From Candidatus Methylomirabilota bacterium (GTDB taxonomy: Bacteria > Methylomirabilota > Methylomirabilia > Rokubacteriales > CSP1-6): a stretch of DNA of 49,775 bases. How positions within the stretch are numbered: position 1 is the stretch's first letter; every line of letters begins with the position of its first letter. The notes under the pieces were generated by a model. It made no database searches, had not been told where the DNA came from, and worked only from the letters and a program-made list of their open reading frames with translations. The DNA lies in NCBI GenBank assembly GCA_036001065.1, contig DASYUQ010000123.1, positions 1-49,775 on the forward strand, read 5' to 3'. Positions 4,748 through 25,924 of this stretch are shown in pieces. The position numbers were made by a program, and so were the translations under genes.

Positions 4748-5863
4748 ATGGGACCCAAGCCGGGGGCCGGGACGATCGGGCTCGGCATCGTGGGAGCGGG
4801 GCGGATCGGGCTGATCCGGGGCGAGATCGCCGCCAGGCATCCCAGCGTGGGATGGATCGGCATCGCCGAGGTGAAGGCGGATCGTGCCAAGGAGGTTGCC
4901 GCCCGGCTCGGCGCCGACTTCGTCACCACCGACTATCGGGAGCTGCTGGGGCGGCCGGAGATCACCGCGGCCGTGATCGCGACGGACGAGCACCTGCACG
5001 TCGATCCTATCCTCGCCGCGGTCGAGCGGCGGCTCCCCCTCATGATCGAGAAGCCCTTGGCCACCGAGCTCGCCGAGTCCGCCCGCGTGCTCCGGGCCAT
5101 CGAACAGGCGGGGATCGACGCCGTCGTCGGCTACACCCAGCGCTTTCGGCGGCGCTTCCTGGTGGCCAAGGAGAAGGTGCGGACGGGCCAGCTCGGCGAC
5201 GTCACCCTCGTGACCTCACGAGCCTTCATGAACCGGCTGGTGGCGATCGACAACTACCGGCGGACGGACAAGCCCGAGACGATCTCCCCGATGGTGATCT
5301 CGGGCACCCACGCGCTCGACGTCGTGATGTGGCTGCTGGAAGGCAAGCGGCCGGTGGAAGTGTACGCGCGCTCGGTGGACAGAGTTCTCGGCCCGACCTA
5401 CCGGGGCATCGACGCCACCGCCGGCGTCATCACGATGGCCGACGGCACGCTCTATCACCTGAACATCTCCTGGGCCCTGCCGGTCGTGTGGCCGGGCTCC
5501 GTCTACAGCCTGGAGATCGGCATCGTGGGAACGGAGGGCGTGCTCACCATCGACGATACCCACCGCGACGTCGTGATGGCCACGACCATCGCCCAGCCGG
5601 CAGGCTACACGCCCGACGCCACCCGGCACGTCGACTTCCTCGGGAGCTACCCTCCCGGCGACATCGCCCTCGGCGAGCTGTGGGGCCCGATGCGCGAGGA
5701 GACCAACGCCTGGCTCTCGCGCGTGGCCCTGGGCCACCCGACGCCCCACGCCACTGCCGCCGAGGCCCACGACCGCCTGACGCTGACCAAGGCGCTGGAC
5801 CTCTCGGCCCGGCGCAAGCGGGCCGTCACGCTGCCGATCACGCCCGAAAACGAGCGGGAGTGA
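4748..5863 (+). CDS. Gfo/Idh/MocA-family oxidoreductase, second copy
   Basis: 371 residues from the ATG at 4748, which has AAGGAGG eight bases upstream. An in-frame ATG at 4709 overlaps the preceding gene but has no such site. The Rossmann motif is GLGIVGAGRIGLIRGEIA and the EKP motif is LMIEKPLATEL. The Y-R-E-L-L-x-R-x-E-I pattern after strand 2 and the GYTQRFRRRF segment are shared with the previous gene, so the two are paralogs. Tandem Gfo/Idh pairs often work on successive oxidation states or epimers of one compound; here that is inference. Confidence 0.88.
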   Translation: MGPKPGAGTIGLGIVGAGRIGLIRGEIAARHPSVGWIGIAEVKADRAKEVAARLGADFVTTDYRELLGRPEITAAVIATDEHLHVDPILAAVERRLPLMIEKPLATELAESARVLRAIEQAGIDAVVGYTQRFRRRFLVAKEKVRTGQLGDVTLVTSRAFMNRLVAIDNYRRTDKPETISPMVISGTHALDVVMWLLEGKRPVEVYARSVDRVLGPTYRGIDATAGVITMADGTLYHLNISWALPVVWPGSVYSLEIGIVGTEGVLTIDDTHRDVVMATTIAQPAGYTPDATRHVDFLGSYPPGDIALGELWGPMREETNAWLSRVALGHPTPHATAAEAHDRLTLTKALDLSARRKRAVTLPITPENERE

Positions 5864-8288: not shown

Positions 8289-8603
8289 CTGGGGCGCGAT
8301 CCGCCGCACCCAGTAATGGCGCGCGATCCGCCAGACGTCGTCCGCGCGGACGCGGTTGATCAGCACGGAGGTGCCCCGCACCCCGCTCACCACGCCGTAG
8401 CCCTGGAACAGCCGGATGTGGAAGTCCTCGGGCACGAACGGGAGCGTGACCACGATGTTCACCAGGGCCTCCCGGTCCAGCGCGCGCGCGAGGGCGGCAT
8501 CGATCCGTCCGGGCGCCGTGAGGCGGACGAAGGCCTCGCCGGCGCCCCACAGCGCGGCGACGACGAGGAGGAACGCCAGCGTGCGGCGCGGCACCGCGAT
8601 CAC
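8286..8603 (-). CDS. Small membrane-anchored protein of unknown function in an ABC operon
   Basis: 105 residues from a GTG whose GTGA overlaps the stop of the preceding permease. Residues 9-25 form one hydrophobic segment (LAFLLVVAALWGAGEAF), either an uncleaved anchor or a signal peptide, followed by a basic/aromatic domain ending WRIARHYWVRRIAPQ. I do not recognise the family. It is too short and has too few helices for a TRAP DctQ subunit. Tight overlap at both ends means it is co-translated with the ABC permeases and the DctP-like protein. Confidence 0.65.
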   Translation of the reverse strand: MIAVPRRTLAFLLVVAALWGAGEAFVRLTAPGRIDAALARALDREALVNIVVTLPFVPEDFHIRLFQGYGVVSGVRGTSVLINRVRADDVWRIARHYWVRRIAPQ

Positions 8604-9373
8604 GGCGTCGTGGACACCAGGCCCCAGCGCTCGATCGTGCGGCGCTCCAGGGGCTGCAGGACCAGGCGGTCGGTGGCGAGCCAGAGGACGCCGATCGTCA
8701 GGATCCCGACCAGGATCGCGTCGGTCTGGTGGAAGTTGGCGGCGTTGTAGATGAGGAACCCGAGCCCGGTGCTGGTGGCGATCATCTCGGCGGCGATGAC
8801 CGCGCGCCAGCCGAAGCCGATGCTCATGCGAACCCCGGTGACGATGCTGGGCAGGGCGCCGGGGATCAGGACGTGGAAGATGACGTGCCGGCGCGAGCCG
8901 CCCAGCGTCAGCACCGCGTTCTCGAAGATCTTCGGCACGGTGCGCACGCCGACCAGGGTGTTGAAGAACACGAGGAAGAAGATCGTGTTAAACATGATGA
9001 ACGTCACGCTGGTCCAGCCCAGGCCGAACCAGGTGATGGCCAGGGGCAGCCAAGCGATCCCCGACAGCGCGTTGAAGAAGCCCACGATCGGCTCCACCAC
9101 GTGGGCCAGCCGCCGGCTCAGCCCTACCGCGACGCCGAGGCCCACCGCCAGCGGCAGGCTCACGGCCACGCCGATCAGCACGCGGCCCAGGCTGGCGCCG
9201 ATGTTGATCCAGAGGGAGCCGTCGCCGAGCATCTCCCAGGCCGTCCGCGCGACGTCGCCGGGTGGCGGCAGGAAGAGCGCCGGCACCACGCCCGCCCGCG
9301 TCAGCAGGGCCCAGGCGACGACGAGGGTGGCGAAGGGCAACGCGCCCCGGGCCGCGGTGGCGGCGCGCGTCAT
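8600..9373 (-). CDS. ABC transporter permease (SsuC/TauC-type), second permease
   Basis: 257 residues from the ATG at 9373, which overlaps the stop of the first permease (ATGA). Six hydrophobic segments are visible. The cytoplasmic EAA-type loop reads NAVLTLGGSRRHVIFHVLIPGALPSIVTG, which contacts the ATPase. Similarity to the upstream permease is strong across the loop and the FGWRAVIAAEM segment, so the two are paralogs and may form a heterodimer. The family imports sulfonates, nitrate, taurine, thiamine precursors or aromatic acids; the substrate here is unknown. Confidence 0.9.
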   Translation of the reverse strand: MTRAATAARGALPFATLVVAWALLTRAGVVPALFLPPPGDVARTAWEMLGDGSLWINIGASLGRVLIGVAVSLPLAVGLGVAVGLSRRLAHVVEPIVGFFNALSGIAWLPLAITWFGLGWTSVTFIMFNTIFFLVFFNTLVGVRTVPKIFENAVLTLGGSRRHVIFHVLIPGALPSIVTGVRMSIGFGWRAVIAAEMIATSTGLGFLIYNAANFHQTDAILVGILTIGVLWLATDRLVLQPLERRTIERWGLVSTTP

Positions 9374-10137
9374 CGCTGCACGAGGCCCCACCGCGCGAAC
9401 GTCGCCTGCTCCAGCGGGCGCAGCACGAAGTAGTCGAGGAGCAGCCACAGCAGCCCGATGATGGCCATCCCGAGCATGATGCGGGCGGTGAGGTGGAAGT
9501 TCTGGGCGTTGAAGATCATGAAGCCCAGACCGTTGGCCCCCACCAGCATCTCGGCGGCGATCAGCGCCCGCCAGCCGAAGGCCAGGCCCAGACGCATGCC
9601 GGTGGCGATGCTCGGCAGCGCGCCGGGGATCAGCACGTCGCGCACGATCCGCCAGCGGGAGGCCCCCAGGGTCCGCAGCGCGCTCACGTAGATGCGCGGC
9701 ACGCTCCGCACCCCCAGCAGGACGTTGAAGATGACCGGGAACAGCACCGTGTAGTTGACCGCGATCAGGATGGTCCGCTCGCCGAACCCGAACCACACCA
9801 GCATCAGCGGTAGCCAGGCGATGCCCGAGACCGACTGGAAGAAGTTCAGCAGCGGGTAGAAGAAGTCCGCCACCCGGCGGCTGAGCCCCAGCACGAGCCC
9901 GGCGGGGACGCCCACCAGCAGGCCGAGCACGGCCGCCAGCAGAATTCGCCGCAGGCTTTCCGCCACGTAGACGGGCAGGATGCCCTTGGTGACCAGATCG
10001 GCGGCCGCCGTCAGGACCGCCGAGGGCGGGGGCAGGAAGTAGTCGGGCACCGGCAGCGTCGCCGCCGCCACGCTCCACGCCCCCAGGGCGCCGGCGAGGA
10101 CGACGATCCAGGTGGCGGCGAGCTCCCAGCGCGCCAC
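9370..10137 (-). CDS. ABC transporter permease (SsuC/TauC-type), first permease
   Basis: 255 residues from a GTG at 10137. Hydrophobic segments lie near 8-28, 68-88, 105-135 and 180-240, with the EAA loop SALRTLGASRWRIVRDVLIPGALPSIATG. The start codon lies immediately after a MITE (10138-10364), so the ribosome binding site expected in the 3' end of the ATPase gene is now more than 220 bases away. If the MITE is removed, GAGGAG from the ATPase gene falls about ten bases before this GTG. The gene is intact, but its translation may depend on sequence supplied by the element. Confidence 0.9.
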   Translation of the reverse strand: MARWELAATWIVVLAGALGAWSVAAATLPVPDYFLPPPSAVLTAAADLVTKGILPVYVAESLRRILLAAVLGLLVGVPAGLVLGLSRRVADFFYPLLNFFQSVSGIAWLPLMLVWFGFGERTILIAVNYTVLFPVIFNVLLGVRSVPRIYVSALRTLGASRWRIVRDVLIPGALPSIATGMRLGLAFGWRALIAAEMLVGANGLGFMIFNAQNFHLTARIMLGMAIIGLLWLLLDYFVLRPLEQATFARWGLVQR

Positions 10138-10364
10138 CTAGTGCTCCGTCTGGGAAGTCATCTCAGGAGTCTGTCCAGCACGCGGCTCCGGGGCCGGCGG
10201 GCACGCGCGGCAGGGGTCGCCGGGATCCGTTCCCGCCCACCGGCGACGGACCTGGCGTCCCGAGGTGGAGCCCAGCCGCAACGGGGCAGCGGACGCCGGC
10301 CGCGTGGTCCCGCGACCCCTGCCGCGTGTGCCCGCCGGGCTCGGCGCGCGGGCACGGACACTAG
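10138..10364. mobile_element. Hairpin MITE, copy 1 (CTAG-flanked, right end eroded)
   Basis: The left end starts CTAGTGCTCCGTCTGGGAAG, the exact inverse of the right end of the copy at 24250-24510. The interior is clearly related to that copy, including shared blocks around GGTGGAGCCCAGCCGC and GTGGTCCCGCGA. Two long internal arms (GCGGGCACGCGCGGCAGGGG and its near-complement CCCCTGCCGCGTGTGCCCGC) make a large hairpin. The right end keeps only a remnant before CTAG at 10361-10364. No transposase is encoded. The CTAG at the right end also supplies the TAG stop of the ATPase gene. Confidence 0.8.
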
Positions 10365-11152
10365 GCCGTCTCCTCGCCGCCCACTTCTTCGCGCACCAGC
10401 CGCAGCACGTGCTCCTTGGTGGCGGCGAAGGCGGAATCGGACGTGAACATCTTCCACGTGCGTCCCTCCCGCGGGATCTTCACCGGCACCAGCGACTTCA
10501 CCCGGCCGGGCCGGCGCGACAGGATGCAGCAGCGGTCGCCCAGGAAGACGGCCTCCTCGACGTTGTGGGTCACGAAGAGGATCGTCTTGCGGGTGGCCAG
10601 CGCGATCGCGTTCAACTCCTCCTGGAGCGTGATGCGGGTCTGGGCGTCCACCGCGGCGAAGGGCTCGTCCATCAGCATCACCTGAGGGTTGGCGGCCAGC
10701 GTCCGGGCCACGGCGACGCGCTGCTTCATGCCCCCGGACAGCTCGTGGGGATACTTCTGCTCGAAGCCGGCCAGCCCGATCAGGTCCACGAAGCGCCGAA
10801 CGGCGGCGGCGCGCTCGGCCCGGGGAACGCCCTGGATCTCGAGGCCGTGGGCGATGTTCCGCTCCACCGTCCGCCACGGCAGGATGGCGAACTCCTGGAA
10901 GACGACGCCGCGGTCGCGGCCCGGGCCCGTCACCGGCTGGGAGTCGAGCAGGATCTGCCCCCGCGTGGGCGGGATGAGCCCGGCCAGGATGTTGAGCAGC
11001 GTCGTCTTGCCGCACCCGCTGGGGCCCACCACGGTGAGGAACTCGCCCTCCGGCACCTCCAGATCGAGCCCGTCGAGCGCGACCACCCGCTCGCGCGTGA
11101 AGGGGTTGACGTACTCGTGCCCGACGCCCCGGAGCGTGATCTTCGGAGGCAC
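10361..11152 (-). CDS. ABC transporter ATP-binding protein (SsuB/TauB-type)
   Basis: 263 residues from the GTG at 11152; an open frame continues upstream into the binding-protein gene but is not needed. Walker A is GPSGCGKTT (residues 43-51), followed by a Q-loop in VVFQEF, the signature LSGGMKQRVAVART, Walker B VMLMDEP with its D-loop, and the switch His in FVTHN. It powers the two SsuC-type permeases from the cytoplasmic side. Its TAG stop lies in the CTAG end of a MITE, so the insertion left the protein intact while separating it from the next gene. Confidence 0.93.
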   Translation of the reverse strand: MPPKITLRGVGHEYVNPFTRERVVALDGLDLEVPEGEFLTVVGPSGCGKTTLLNILAGLIPPTRGQILLDSQPVTGPGRDRGVVFQEFAILPWRTVERNIAHGLEIQGVPRAERAAAVRRFVDLIGLAGFEQKYPHELSGGMKQRVAVARTLAANPQVMLMDEPFAAVDAQTRITLQEELNAIALATRKTILFVTHNVEEAVFLGDRCCILSRRPGRVKSLVPVKIPREGRTWKMFTSDSAFAATKEHVLRLVREEVGGEETA

Positions 11153-11175
11153 GCCGGCTCGCCGCGCCCTTAGGC

Positions 11176-12186
11176 TCAGGGCACCGGCTTGAGGTCCGAG
11201 AAGAGCTGCGGGTGCGACTTCATCACCTTCTCGATGAAGCGCAGCTCGATCCCCTGCTGCCAGGGGATCGCCGCCCGGAGCTTCTTCTGCTCGATCAGGA
11301 TCCCGACGTTCTCCTCCCAGGCCGCCACCGTGTGCGGGGTGATGCGGGGATCGAAGGTCATGTGGCGGATGGCCTGCTTGGCGACGGCCGCGTCCAGGCC
11401 CGTGACCCAGCGGGTGGCGATCTCCGCCGCCTCGTCGAGATGCTGCCGCGTGTACTGGGCCGCTTCGGCCATGGCGACGACGTAGCGTTCCACCAGCTCG
11501 GGGCTCTTGTCGATGACGTCGTTGCGGATGGCCATGTTGATGTAGTAGCCGATGTGCCCCCCGCCGCGCGACACCAGCACGGCATCCGCGACCCGCGCCT
11601 GGACGAGCGATCCGAACGGCTCCCAGCAGGCGACCGCGTCCACCCCGCCGCCCTGGAGCGCCGACACGAGGTTGCCGGGCGGGACGTTCAGGAGGTTCAC
11701 CTTCTCGCGGGAGAGCCCTTTGCGCTTGAGGACCACGCCGAGGTACTCGTCGGCGGTGCCGCCGACCGGCGTGCCGATCTTGCGGCCGGCCAGATCCTCG
11801 ACCTTGGTGATGCCCGTGCCCTTCCGGGTCCAGATGCTGACGGGGTCGTCGGAGTACCGGCTGTTGCGGTCGCCCATCAGCCCCACCACGCCCCGGGCGC
11901 CCATCCCGCGCTCGACGGCCACGGGGAAGTTGGAGTAGGCGGAGCCGATGATCTGGGCCTCCCCCGCCTGCAGCGCCTTGGCCATCTCCTGGCCGGTGTT
12001 CAGGACTTTCAGCTTCAGGTCGATGCCGTGCTTGAGGAAGATGCCCTTCTCCACGCCCACGAAGCTGGGGACGTGGTTCATGTTGCCGCCCACCGCGGCC
12101 GCCATCGGCGCCGGCTGCTGCGCCGGTGTCGGCCCGGCCATCGCCAGGACGGCGACCAGAACTCCCACGGACAGGACTCGGTTCAT
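11176..12186 (-). CDS. ABC transporter substrate-binding protein (NMT1/TauA/SsuA-type)
   Basis: 336 residues from the ATG at 12186, with AAGGAG nine bases upstream. The signal peptide is MNRVLSVGVLVAVLAMAGPT, probably cleaved after TPAQ. The mature domain has features of the NMT1-like periplasmic fold: FVGVEKGIFLKHGIDLKLKV, EMAKALQAGEAQIIG, GRKIGTPVGGTADEYL and DAVACWEPF. It captures a small organic solute in the periplasm for the ATPase and two permeases encoded just downstream. The nitrate/sulfonate/taurine grouping is by fold, and the ligand cannot be named. Confidence 0.9.
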   Translation of the reverse strand: MNRVLSVGVLVAVLAMAGPTPAQQPAPMAAAVGGNMNHVPSFVGVEKGIFLKHGIDLKLKVLNTGQEMAKALQAGEAQIIGSAYSNFPVAVERGMGARGVVGLMGDRNSRYSDDPVSIWTRKGTGITKVEDLAGRKIGTPVGGTADEYLGVVLKRKGLSREKVNLLNVPPGNLVSALQGGGVDAVACWEPFGSLVQARVADAVLVSRGGGHIGYYINMAIRNDVIDKSPELVERYVVAMAEAAQYTRQHLDEAAEIATRWVTGLDAAVAKQAIRHMTFDPRITPHTVAAWEENVGILIEQKKLRAAIPWQQGIELRFIEKVMKSHPQLFSDLKPVP

Positions 12187-12221: not shown

Positions 12222-12875
12222 TCACCGTCCCTCCACGCCGCCGGCGCGCGCCCCGCCGCATACGCGGCAAGCATACTCGTCCAGCGCACGCGCCGTCACG
12301 CCGACCGCCCGATGCTGACGGCGGTTCACCTCGTCCGGCTCGAGCTCGGTGCGGAACGAGTCGTTGAGCCGGTTGATCATGTTGAAGAGCGCCGCGGCCA
12401 TCGAGATCTCCACGATCTCCGCGTCGGTGAAGTGCCGGCGCATCTCCGCCCAGGCCGCGTCGTCGTTCTTGGCGGTGTTGAGGGTCAGGGCCTCCGCCCA
12501 GCGGAGGACGGCCCGGTCGCGCGCGTCGAAGAGCGCGCTGGCCGCATAATCGCCTTGCAGGGCGGCGAACTCGGCATCGGTCAGTCCCAGGGCTTGACCA
12601 AGCACCCGGTTGTGCTCGGTTCAGTAGCGGCAGCCGTTGACGGTCGAGGTCTTCAGCACCGCGAGGTTTCTCAGCCGCGGCGATGACACCGCCCCGGCCC
12701 GGGGCTGGCGGATGGCCGCCACCAGCGGCAGGAACCACTTGGCCAGGCCCGGGCTGTGGGCCACGATCCGCAAGAGGTTCGCCACCCGCCCCAGCATCTC
12801 GGTGGACGCCGCGAACACCTCCGCCACCGGGCCGGTCGCTTCCTCGTCGGTGATGCCCCGGATCCGCTGCGCCAT
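12222..12875 (-). CDS. AhpD/carboxymuconolactone-decarboxylase-like selenoprotein (in-frame TGA read as Sec85)
   Basis: The frame opens at ATG 12875 with GGGAGG upstream, runs 84 codons to NGCRY, meets a TGA at 12623-12621, and continues in the same frame for 132 codons (TEHNRVLGQALGLTDAEFAAL onward). Relatives of this family normally read NGCRYCTEHN here, so the TGA stands exactly where the second, peroxide-reactive Cys of the CxxC pair belongs, giving C82-R-Y-U85-T-E-H88. Both flanks look healthy, and a SECIS-like hairpin follows the TGA. In AhpD-like enzymes this pair reduces peroxides or disulfides. The mature product would be 217 residues, with a further CxxC (CRVC) near the C-terminus. 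No SelA, SelB or SelC gene is in the window. The alternative is a pseudogene with a point nonsense mutation, which I consider unlikely. It lies between the ABC operon and a divergent LivK-type gene. Confidence 0.85.
12587..12609 (-). promoter_or_regulatory. Bacterial SECIS-like hairpin downstream of the recoded TGA
   Basis: On the mRNA, starting 12 bases after the UGA, CCGGG, a bulged U, GCUU, the loop GGUC, AAGC and CCUGG fold into nine pairs (one G-U) with a single bulged U on the 5' side. The loop starts 22 bases after the UGA and opens with GG. The Escherichia coli fdhF element has the same plan: a bulged U, a short upper stem and a GGUC-containing loop recognised by SelB. A competing nine-pair stem, ACCGAGCAC with GUGCUUGGU (12620-12597), overlaps it. 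Confidence 0.8.
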
Positions 12876-24510: not shown

Positions 24511-24535
24511 TGCGCCTCCCACCGGATTTTCTCGA

Positions 24536-25924
24536 ATGAGCCAGGATCTCCGGAGCTTCATCGCCGAGTACGAGCGAGCCGACCCCGAGGAGGTCGTCCG
24601 CATCGCCGAGCCCGTGGGGATCGAGCACGACGTGATGGCGCTCGTGCTCGAGTACGAGCGCCGCCGGCGGTACCCGGTCCTCCTCTTCGAGCACGTCAAG
24701 GGCTACGACATCCCGATCGTCGCCAACGTGGTAGCCAGCCGCCGCGCGCTGGCCTTCGCGCTCGGCGTCCCCGCGAACAGGCTGGCCGCCGAGTACGCCC
24801 GGCGCATCAAGGAGCGGATCAAGCCGGTCGTCGTGCCGGACCCGCCGTTCCGGCACCGCCGGCTGAGCGGTGACGCCGTCGATCTGGGGGCGCTTCCGAT
24901 TCCCGTCTACTTCCCCGGCGACGCGGGTCGCTATCTCACCGCGGGGATGGTGGTGGCACGCGACCCCGACACCGGAGTCGAGACGGAGGGCTACCACCGC
25001 TTCCAGGTCAAGGGGCGCAACCGGATGGGCGTGAGCCTGCACTCGCGGCGCCGCATGTTCGAGTACCAGCGGCGCGCCGAGGCCAAGAACCAGCCGCTGC
25101 CCTGCGCGATCGTCCTCGGGCTCCACCCGCTGGTCTCGATGGGCTCACTGGCCTATCCGCCGCCGGACGTCGGGAAGTTCGAGGTGGTGGGCGGTCTCCT
25201 GGGCGAGCCTCTGGAAATCGCGCCGTGCGCGACGATCGATCTCCACGTCCCGGCCACGGCGGAGATCGTGATCGAGGGCGAGATCCTGCCGCACGCGCGC
25301 GAGCCGGAAGGCCCGTTCGGCGAGTTCACCGGCTACTTCTCGCGGCGCAGCACCGAACACGTGTTCGTCGCCCGGGCCATCGCCATGCGCGAGCATCCGT
25401 GGTTCCAGTCGATCGGCTCGGGCCGCGCCGGCGACCACATCACGACCCTCGGCCTCATCCGGGAGGCCGAGATCACCAACGCCCTCACCCGCGTGATCCC
25501 CAACGTGACCGGGGTCCACGTGCCGCTCTCCGGCACCTCCTCCTTCATCGCCTATGTGTCCATCAAGCAGAGCCGGCCCGGCGAGGCCAAGCACGTGATC
25601 CCCATCGTGCTGGGCGTGGACCATTATTTGAAGCTGGTGATCGTCGTCGACGACGACATCGATGTGTTCGATGAATCGGACGTGCTGTGGGCGGTCGCGA
25701 CACGGATGCAGGCCGACCGCGATTTACTCATCATCTCCGGCAGCCTCGGCGCCCTGCTCGACCCCAGCGCCGACGACCGCGGCATCACCGCCAAGCTCGG
25801 CATCGACGCCACCCGCCCCTTCGGTCAGCCGTTCGGCGAGAAGCTCGTCATGGCGCCCGACCGCATGGCCTGGGCCCGCGCTCTGGTGGACAAACTCAGC
25901 TCGTCAGGGGGACGCCCGTCATGA
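24536..25924 (+). CDS. UbiD-family prenylated-FMN-dependent decarboxylase
   Basis: 462 residues. The family signature is REPEGPFGEFTGYFSRRST, giving the catalytic acidic pair E258 and E263; the conserved arginines lie in VKGRNRMGVSLHS (about 161-163). Length and domain order fit UbiD/FdcA-type (de)carboxylases, which use prenylated FMN made by a UbiX partner; UbiX is not in this window. These enzymes decarboxylate or carboxylate aromatic and alpha,beta-unsaturated acids in the cytoplasm. The ATG has only a poor ribosome site and lies 25 bases after a MITE, so its original promoter may have been replaced. The next gene starts inside its last codons. Confidence 0.92.
   Translation: MSQDLRSFIAEYERADPEEVVRIAEPVGIEHDVMALVLEYERRRRYPVLLFEHVKGYDIPIVANVVASRRALAFALGVPANRLAAEYARRIKERIKPVVVPDPPFRHRRLSGDAVDLGALPIPVYFPGDAGRYLTAGMVVARDPDTGVETEGYHRFQVKGRNRMGVSLHSRRRMFEYQRRAEAKNQPLPCAIVLGLHPLVSMGSLAYPPPDVGKFEVVGGLLGEPLEIAPCATIDLHVPATAEIVIEGEILPHAREPEGPFGEFTGYFSRRSTEHVFVARAIAMREHPWFQSIGSGRAGDHITTLGLIREAEITNALTRVIPNVTGVHVPLSGTSSFIAYVSIKQSRPGEAKHVIPIVLGVDHYLKLVIVVDDDIDVFDESDVLWAVATRMQADRDLLIISGSLGALLDPSADDRGITAKLGIDATRPFGQPFGEKLVMAPDRMAWARALVDKLSSSGGRPS

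Follow-up and report, generated by a model that had tools for sequence, protein, structure and literature searches.

We describe a gene from a Candidatus Methylomirabilota genome that most probably encodes a CMD/AhpD-fold selenoprotein, with UGA codon 85 decoded through a downstream SECIS hairpin and a C82xxU85 motif as its active site. That TGA 85 as such is read as selenocysteine (Sec) seems close to certain, being strongly supported by a conserved TGA, Cys/Sec pairs among homologs, a SECIS element conserved at the nucleotide level, purifying selection downstream of the codon, and Sec machinery throughout the lineage. The gene lies in a stretch of 49,775 nucleotides, hereafter called the window, and its host, a member of the Rokubacteria lineage, is a soil or groundwater bacterium. 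AhpD-like selenoproteins of the CxxU type are already known, and the Methylomirabilota have been reported as rich in selenoproteins. What is new, judging from the aligned sequences, is an orthogroup that combines an invariant C-terminal CxxC (C203/C206) with an Asn replacing the relay Glu of AhpD.

The gene covers positions 12222..12875 of the minus strand (217 codons, TGA 85 counted as Sec), an assignment drawn from its translation, Pfam/NCBIfam matches, an AlphaFold model, and Foldseek comparisons. It starts with an ATG at 12875, a few bases behind a GGGGAGG, and closes with a terminal TGA at 12224-12222. Codon 85 (12621..12623, minus strand) belongs to the motif C82-R-Y-U85, whose partner Cys82 is encoded at 12630..12632 (minus strand). 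The initial annotation, made from the sequence alone, had described a frame broken once, by the TGA at 12623-12621, a good ribosome site for the upstream half, and 132 downstream codons that remain open and family-like. All of this holds: the translation shows the same single interruption and the 132 open codons after it, the GGGGAGG is in place, and the PF02627 and TIGR01926 matches run across the TGA. It had also noted C82xxU85 with H88 nearby; the motif is indeed there, but H88 stands at U+3 rather than at the second-Cys+4 position of AhpD. When the whole window was scanned for internal TGA codons with coding-like base composition on both sides, only 12623-12621 and 19560 were returned. The latter was discarded as a genuine stop adjoining the next gene, that is, an ordinary gene junction.

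Close relatives were found at seven loci in a search of 84,980 species genomes, and one further relative (L030) came from 40 genomes searched within the lineage; L029, from the same 40-genome search, was taken to be the same contig as L017 and therefore counted once. The hosts of these orthologs are Rokubacteria and betaproteobacterial MAGs. Identity to the window protein ranges from 69 to 97%, the highest value belonging to a Rokubacteria MAG of the same genus. TGA is kept at codon 85 in 8/8 orthologs, hence in all nine orthogroup sequences, and since the search patterns spelled this site as Cys, the search did not favour TGA there. Cys82 is equally constant (9/9 in the orthogroup, 21/22 in the other homologs). 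Aligning homologs at the TGA, as had been proposed beforehand, places Cys in the codon-85 column of four more distant ones (L036, L047, L123, and L124). Cys/Sec pairs of this kind are standard evidence for selenoprotein families (PMC13188914), and the orthogroup thus displays what is asked of a bacterial selenoprotein, namely, an in-frame UGA that is conserved at a redox site where homologs carry Cys. TGA also occupies this column in many of the lineage's more distant CMD homologs, including three in the own genome (contigs C3, C116, and C79). The CMD paralogs with an in-frame TGA in that genome are L057, L120, and L121, and L121 reads APYU, with Ala replacing the partner Cys. No relative was found in viral contigs, and the plasmid search returned only CMD relatives at <60%.

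With the TGA read through, residues 65-129 match the Pfam CMD family (PF02627) at 28 bits, above the gathering score of 23, and the fold agrees with membership of the CMD superfamily. The match to NCBIfam TIGR01926 ('peroxidase-related enzyme', residues 8-174) reaches 73.9 bits and stays below the cut-off of 81.8, which leaves the protein outside that family. An AlphaFold model built from 31 sequences (pLDDT 90.9), which superseded an earlier one from 9 sequences (pLDDT 62.8), puts U85 near the start of helix 83-95. The closest folds in Foldseek are the debrominase Bmp8, the antioxidant-annotated Mlr4105, and AhpD-like proteins, with Bmp8 (6ohj) as the best match (E 6.4e-7, prob 1.00). The second dithiol motif, C203-x-x-C206 (12258..12269, minus strand), is located in an added C-terminal helix (195-211 in the model). 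It is invariant in 9/9 members, and both motif and helix are absent from the other 22 homologs aligned, most of which were aligned as matched stretches, with full tails checked for 20 homolog loci.

The redox pair of AhpD proteins (CxxC or CxxU) is thus present as C82xxU85. We take the AhpD proton relay to consist of a Glu that precedes the first Cys by 12 residues and a His at the second Cys+4, as in M. tuberculosis AhpD. At these two places all nine orthogroup members have Asn70 and Asn89, respectively, where 10/22 other homologs have Glu and 9/22 have His; like the added helix, Asn70 sets the orthogroup apart from all 22. For this reason, AhpD-type peroxidase chemistry appears doubtful, and the 'peroxide or disulfide reductase' of the initial annotation remains a guess. 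The CMD/AhpD fold, the CxxU in place of CxxC, and the resemblance to both TIGR01926 and D. radiodurans AhpD (6k40) would fit a genuine alkyl hydroperoxidase of the AhpD type, in which Sec is the peroxidatic residue and the C-terminal cysteines have no special role. Given the two Asn replacements and the invariance of the C-terminal CxxC, we regard such an enzyme as rather unlikely.

Only 35 nt downstream of the selenoprotein gene, on the same strand, lies a gene for an NMT1/THI5-like substrate-binding protein (11176..12186, minus strand; PF09084), the next gene of a probable operon that continues with an ABC ATPase (10361-11194, minus strand) and two permeases (9370-10137 and 8600-9385, minus strand; PF00005 and PF00528 for ATPase and permeases, 8600..11194). 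The selenoprotein gene is probably co-transcribed with this ABC importer. A LivK-type binding protein, an alpha/beta hydrolase, and an amidohydrolase are encoded divergently from it. The 'organic-acid transporters' first named as neighbours should be corrected to an NMT1/THI5-type ABC system, a DctP protein, and the LivK-type binding protein that runs divergently. Several neighbours of the orthologs are matched by genes elsewhere in the window. An M24 peptidase-like fragment (80-85%) lies at its left edge, a Gfo/Idh oxidoreductase (70%) at 4808-5857, and a UbiD gene, which shares 85% identity with the neighbour of L030, at ~24530-25897. This suggests a catabolic setting shared by the orthologs and implies no specific substrate. 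Between 20614 and 30512, the window also holds xanthine dehydrogenase-like, LivK-type, UbiD, cyclase-like, and thiolase-like genes (named by eye, except UbiD). As a whole, the window resembles a large region of catabolic genes.

Taken together, the protein is probably a selenol-thiol oxidoreductase, for which peroxides, disulfides, and halogenated compounds are candidate substrates; whether the substrate is a peroxide or disulfide is evenly balanced. In the mechanism that we propose, SelB and tRNA-Sec would decode UGA 85 through the directly downstream SECIS hairpin, and C82xxU85, at the N-terminal end of a helix, would form the active site. The U85 selenolate may then attack an oxidised or electrophilic substrate, after which C82 could resolve the adduct as an Se-S bond. 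The C203xxC206 dithiol might re-reduce that bond with electrons supplied by thioredoxin or a comparable reductant, a relay role to which we give about an even chance. The substrate would probably arise during the breakdown of an imported small molecule, because the gene is probably co-transcribed with an importer inside a catabolic region. A bolder version, tentative and on balance unlikely, is that of a so far unrecognised CMD-fold selenoenzyme orthogroup with a two-site relay that carries out a non-peroxide step (such as reductive dehalogenation or disulfide reduction) and that has moved between Rokubacteria and aquatic betaproteobacteria along with its SECIS and catabolic neighbours.

Bmp8 (6ohi/6ohj) has the same fold as the window protein and is a cysteine enzyme with a known substrate, and Bmp8 and deiodinase are linked by mechanism. 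One could envisage a reductive dehalogenase-like selenoenzyme that acts as Bmp8 and deiodinases do: the halogen of an aromatic or heteroaromatic intermediate would be attacked by U85, and C82, C203, and C206 would reduce the selenenyl halide so formed. Bmp8 is not only the best Foldseek match but is also matched by sequence profile, and related loci carry two-component flavin monooxygenase-like genes together with UbiD, the latter also being present in the window. However, Bmp8 is only 21% identical to the window selenoprotein, the antioxidant-annotated 3c1l scores equally well, and a nearby halogen-specific gene was not identified, so that we consider such a dehalogenase improbable.

The predicted bacterial SECIS downstream of UGA 85, CCGGG-U-GCUU-GGUC-AAGC-CCUGG with the single U bulged, spans 12587..12609 (minus strand), and its GGUC loop begins 21 nt after the UGA. 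Its 14 bases GTGCTTGGTCAAGC (codons +6 to +10) are identical in 9/9 orthogroup sequences. At codons +6 to +11, five of the six degenerate codons for invariant amino acids are themselves invariant vs 7/92 elsewhere (Fisher p = 6.6e-5, for a stretch picked after the data were seen). The SECIS codons CTT, GGT, and CAA account for 1%, 4%, and 5% of their amino acids in neighbouring genes. The orthogroup provides a clean example of SECIS bases being kept while the surrounding codons drift. The fold with the bulged U is found in the window, the same-genus ortholog, and L030; betaproteobacterial orthologs offer this U an A to pair with, meaning that the bulge is not universal. When all 54 nt that follow the UGA in the window gene are folded, a competing structure has the lowest energy; the hairpin is seen on folding the local segment. 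The bSECIS model describes a loop of 3-9 nt with a G in the first two positions, an upper stem of 4-16 bp, and a spacing of 16-37 nt (PMC13188914). With its GGUC loop, 21 nt spacing, and 9 bp with a bulged U (local segment folded), the window hairpin fits it. Folded for comparison, the SECIS of E. coli fdhF follows the same plan, with GGUC as the apical loop and a U bulging from the 5' strand of the upper stem. The two differ in having four (window) vs three (fdhF) bp above the bulge and in a distance between UGA and loop of 21 vs 18 nt. An Rfam search of the window gave no match.

The Sec machinery was looked for in the own assembly as well as across the lineage, its absence being what the initial annotation had named as speaking against a selenoprotein. 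The own assembly has a SelD that is itself of the Sec type (AYASCAG-U-ASKMAPG); in the selD locus (L024, G000:C202:25099-26043), the active-site Cys position is encoded by TGA. It gave no match for selA and none for selB, the best selB matches being other translation GTPases (rejected as IF-2, BipA, LepA, and EF-G). No tRNA-Sec candidate passed either: the four best loci were dismissed because ARAGORN assigns the matched places to tRNA-Ser, -Arg, -Gly, and -Leu. These three are thus missing even though the assembly is rated 100% complete. Among the 40 lineage genomes (own included), on the other hand, selA exceeds the cut-off in 38/40, selB in 37/40, and tRNA-Sec in 34/40, and the same-genus genome G001 has the order selC-selA-selB at C80:10457-15283, with a tRNA-Sec (anticodon TCA) confirmed by ARAGORN. 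The own contig C80 (7,824 bases) is syntenic with G001:C80 2057-9569 (93%) and ends there. Its final 140 bases (G000:C80:7685-7824, L125) have exact copies at one end each of contigs C13 and C14 and within C20 (C20:1494-1632). This repeat is probably the end of a mobile element, at which the assembly is interrupted beside the sel cluster. As the synteny runs out within this multi-copy repeat, immediately ahead of selC, the missing selA, selB, and selC likely reflect an assembly break, and the absence of Sec machinery is probably only apparent. A large real deletion is a less likely alternative, the 20 kb far flank (G001:C80 15001-35000) having no close match in the own assembly either. If it had occurred, at least five TGA-containing genes (the gene studied, three CMD paralogs, and selD) would have been tolerated as broken. 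A separate short interspersed repeat (~73-104 nt, copies mostly 78-97% identical) occurs at L118:13252-13355 and ~40 places in the own genome, with one copy between selA and selB in the same-genus genome.

The three genes missing from the own assembly could also be taken to mean that UGA 85 is read in another way, by near-cognate suppression or an unusual tRNA. We consider this very improbable in view of the conserved SECIS, the Sec-type selD, the full machinery in relatives, the repeat in which the own contig ends at the sel locus, and the fact that UGA also terminates the same gene.

Selection acts similarly before and beyond codon 85. Comparison with the same-genus ortholog gives a dN/dS of 0.09 for the upstream part and 0.15 for the downstream part; across the orthologs it is ~0.07-0.18 upstream and ~0.11-0.22 downstream, the values for distant pairs being rough because synonymous sites are near saturation. 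The downstream half is under purifying selection and is not decaying, as it might have been in close relatives had the initial annotation been mistaken. A pseudogene or sequencing error, at first sight suggested by a single in-frame stop within a metagenome assembly, is therefore rejected as having a negligible chance, the TGA being kept across nine separate genomes from independent assemblies, with a conserved SECIS and similar constraint on either side.

Selenoproteins of the AhpD-like CxxU type (TIGR01926 / COG2128 / PF02627) have been known since 2005 and were first listed from Sargasso Sea and GOS metagenomes (PMC1088965, PMC2398784); they also feature in a 2026 review (PMC13188914), in line with the earlier remark that they had been reported from metagenomes. 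The window protein has in common with them the CMD fold, the CxxU, a UGA aligned with the Cys of homologs, and a downstream SECIS, and differs by its C-terminal helix with an invariant CxxC and the Asn at the relay-Glu position. It is also related to NF053654 ('YciW-related (seleno)protein', NCBIfam; 67 bits, E 1.4e-18) but is not a member, as it scores far under the equivalog cut-off of 310 bits. PMC13188914 also mentions, as its ref. 66, a MAG of the Methylomirabilota for which 63 selenoproteins are predicted; going by the 97%-identical ortholog in the same-genus Rokubacteria MAG and by the placement of Rokubacteria, it would belong to the same phylum, and it likewise has many TGA-containing genes. 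Standard gene callers would split the gene at 12875-12222 into two fragments, and the same applies to the many other TGA-containing CMD genes of the lineage. The orthogroup offers a defined test of the role of Sec in an AhpD fold that lacks the AhpD relay residues and carries a second dithiol.
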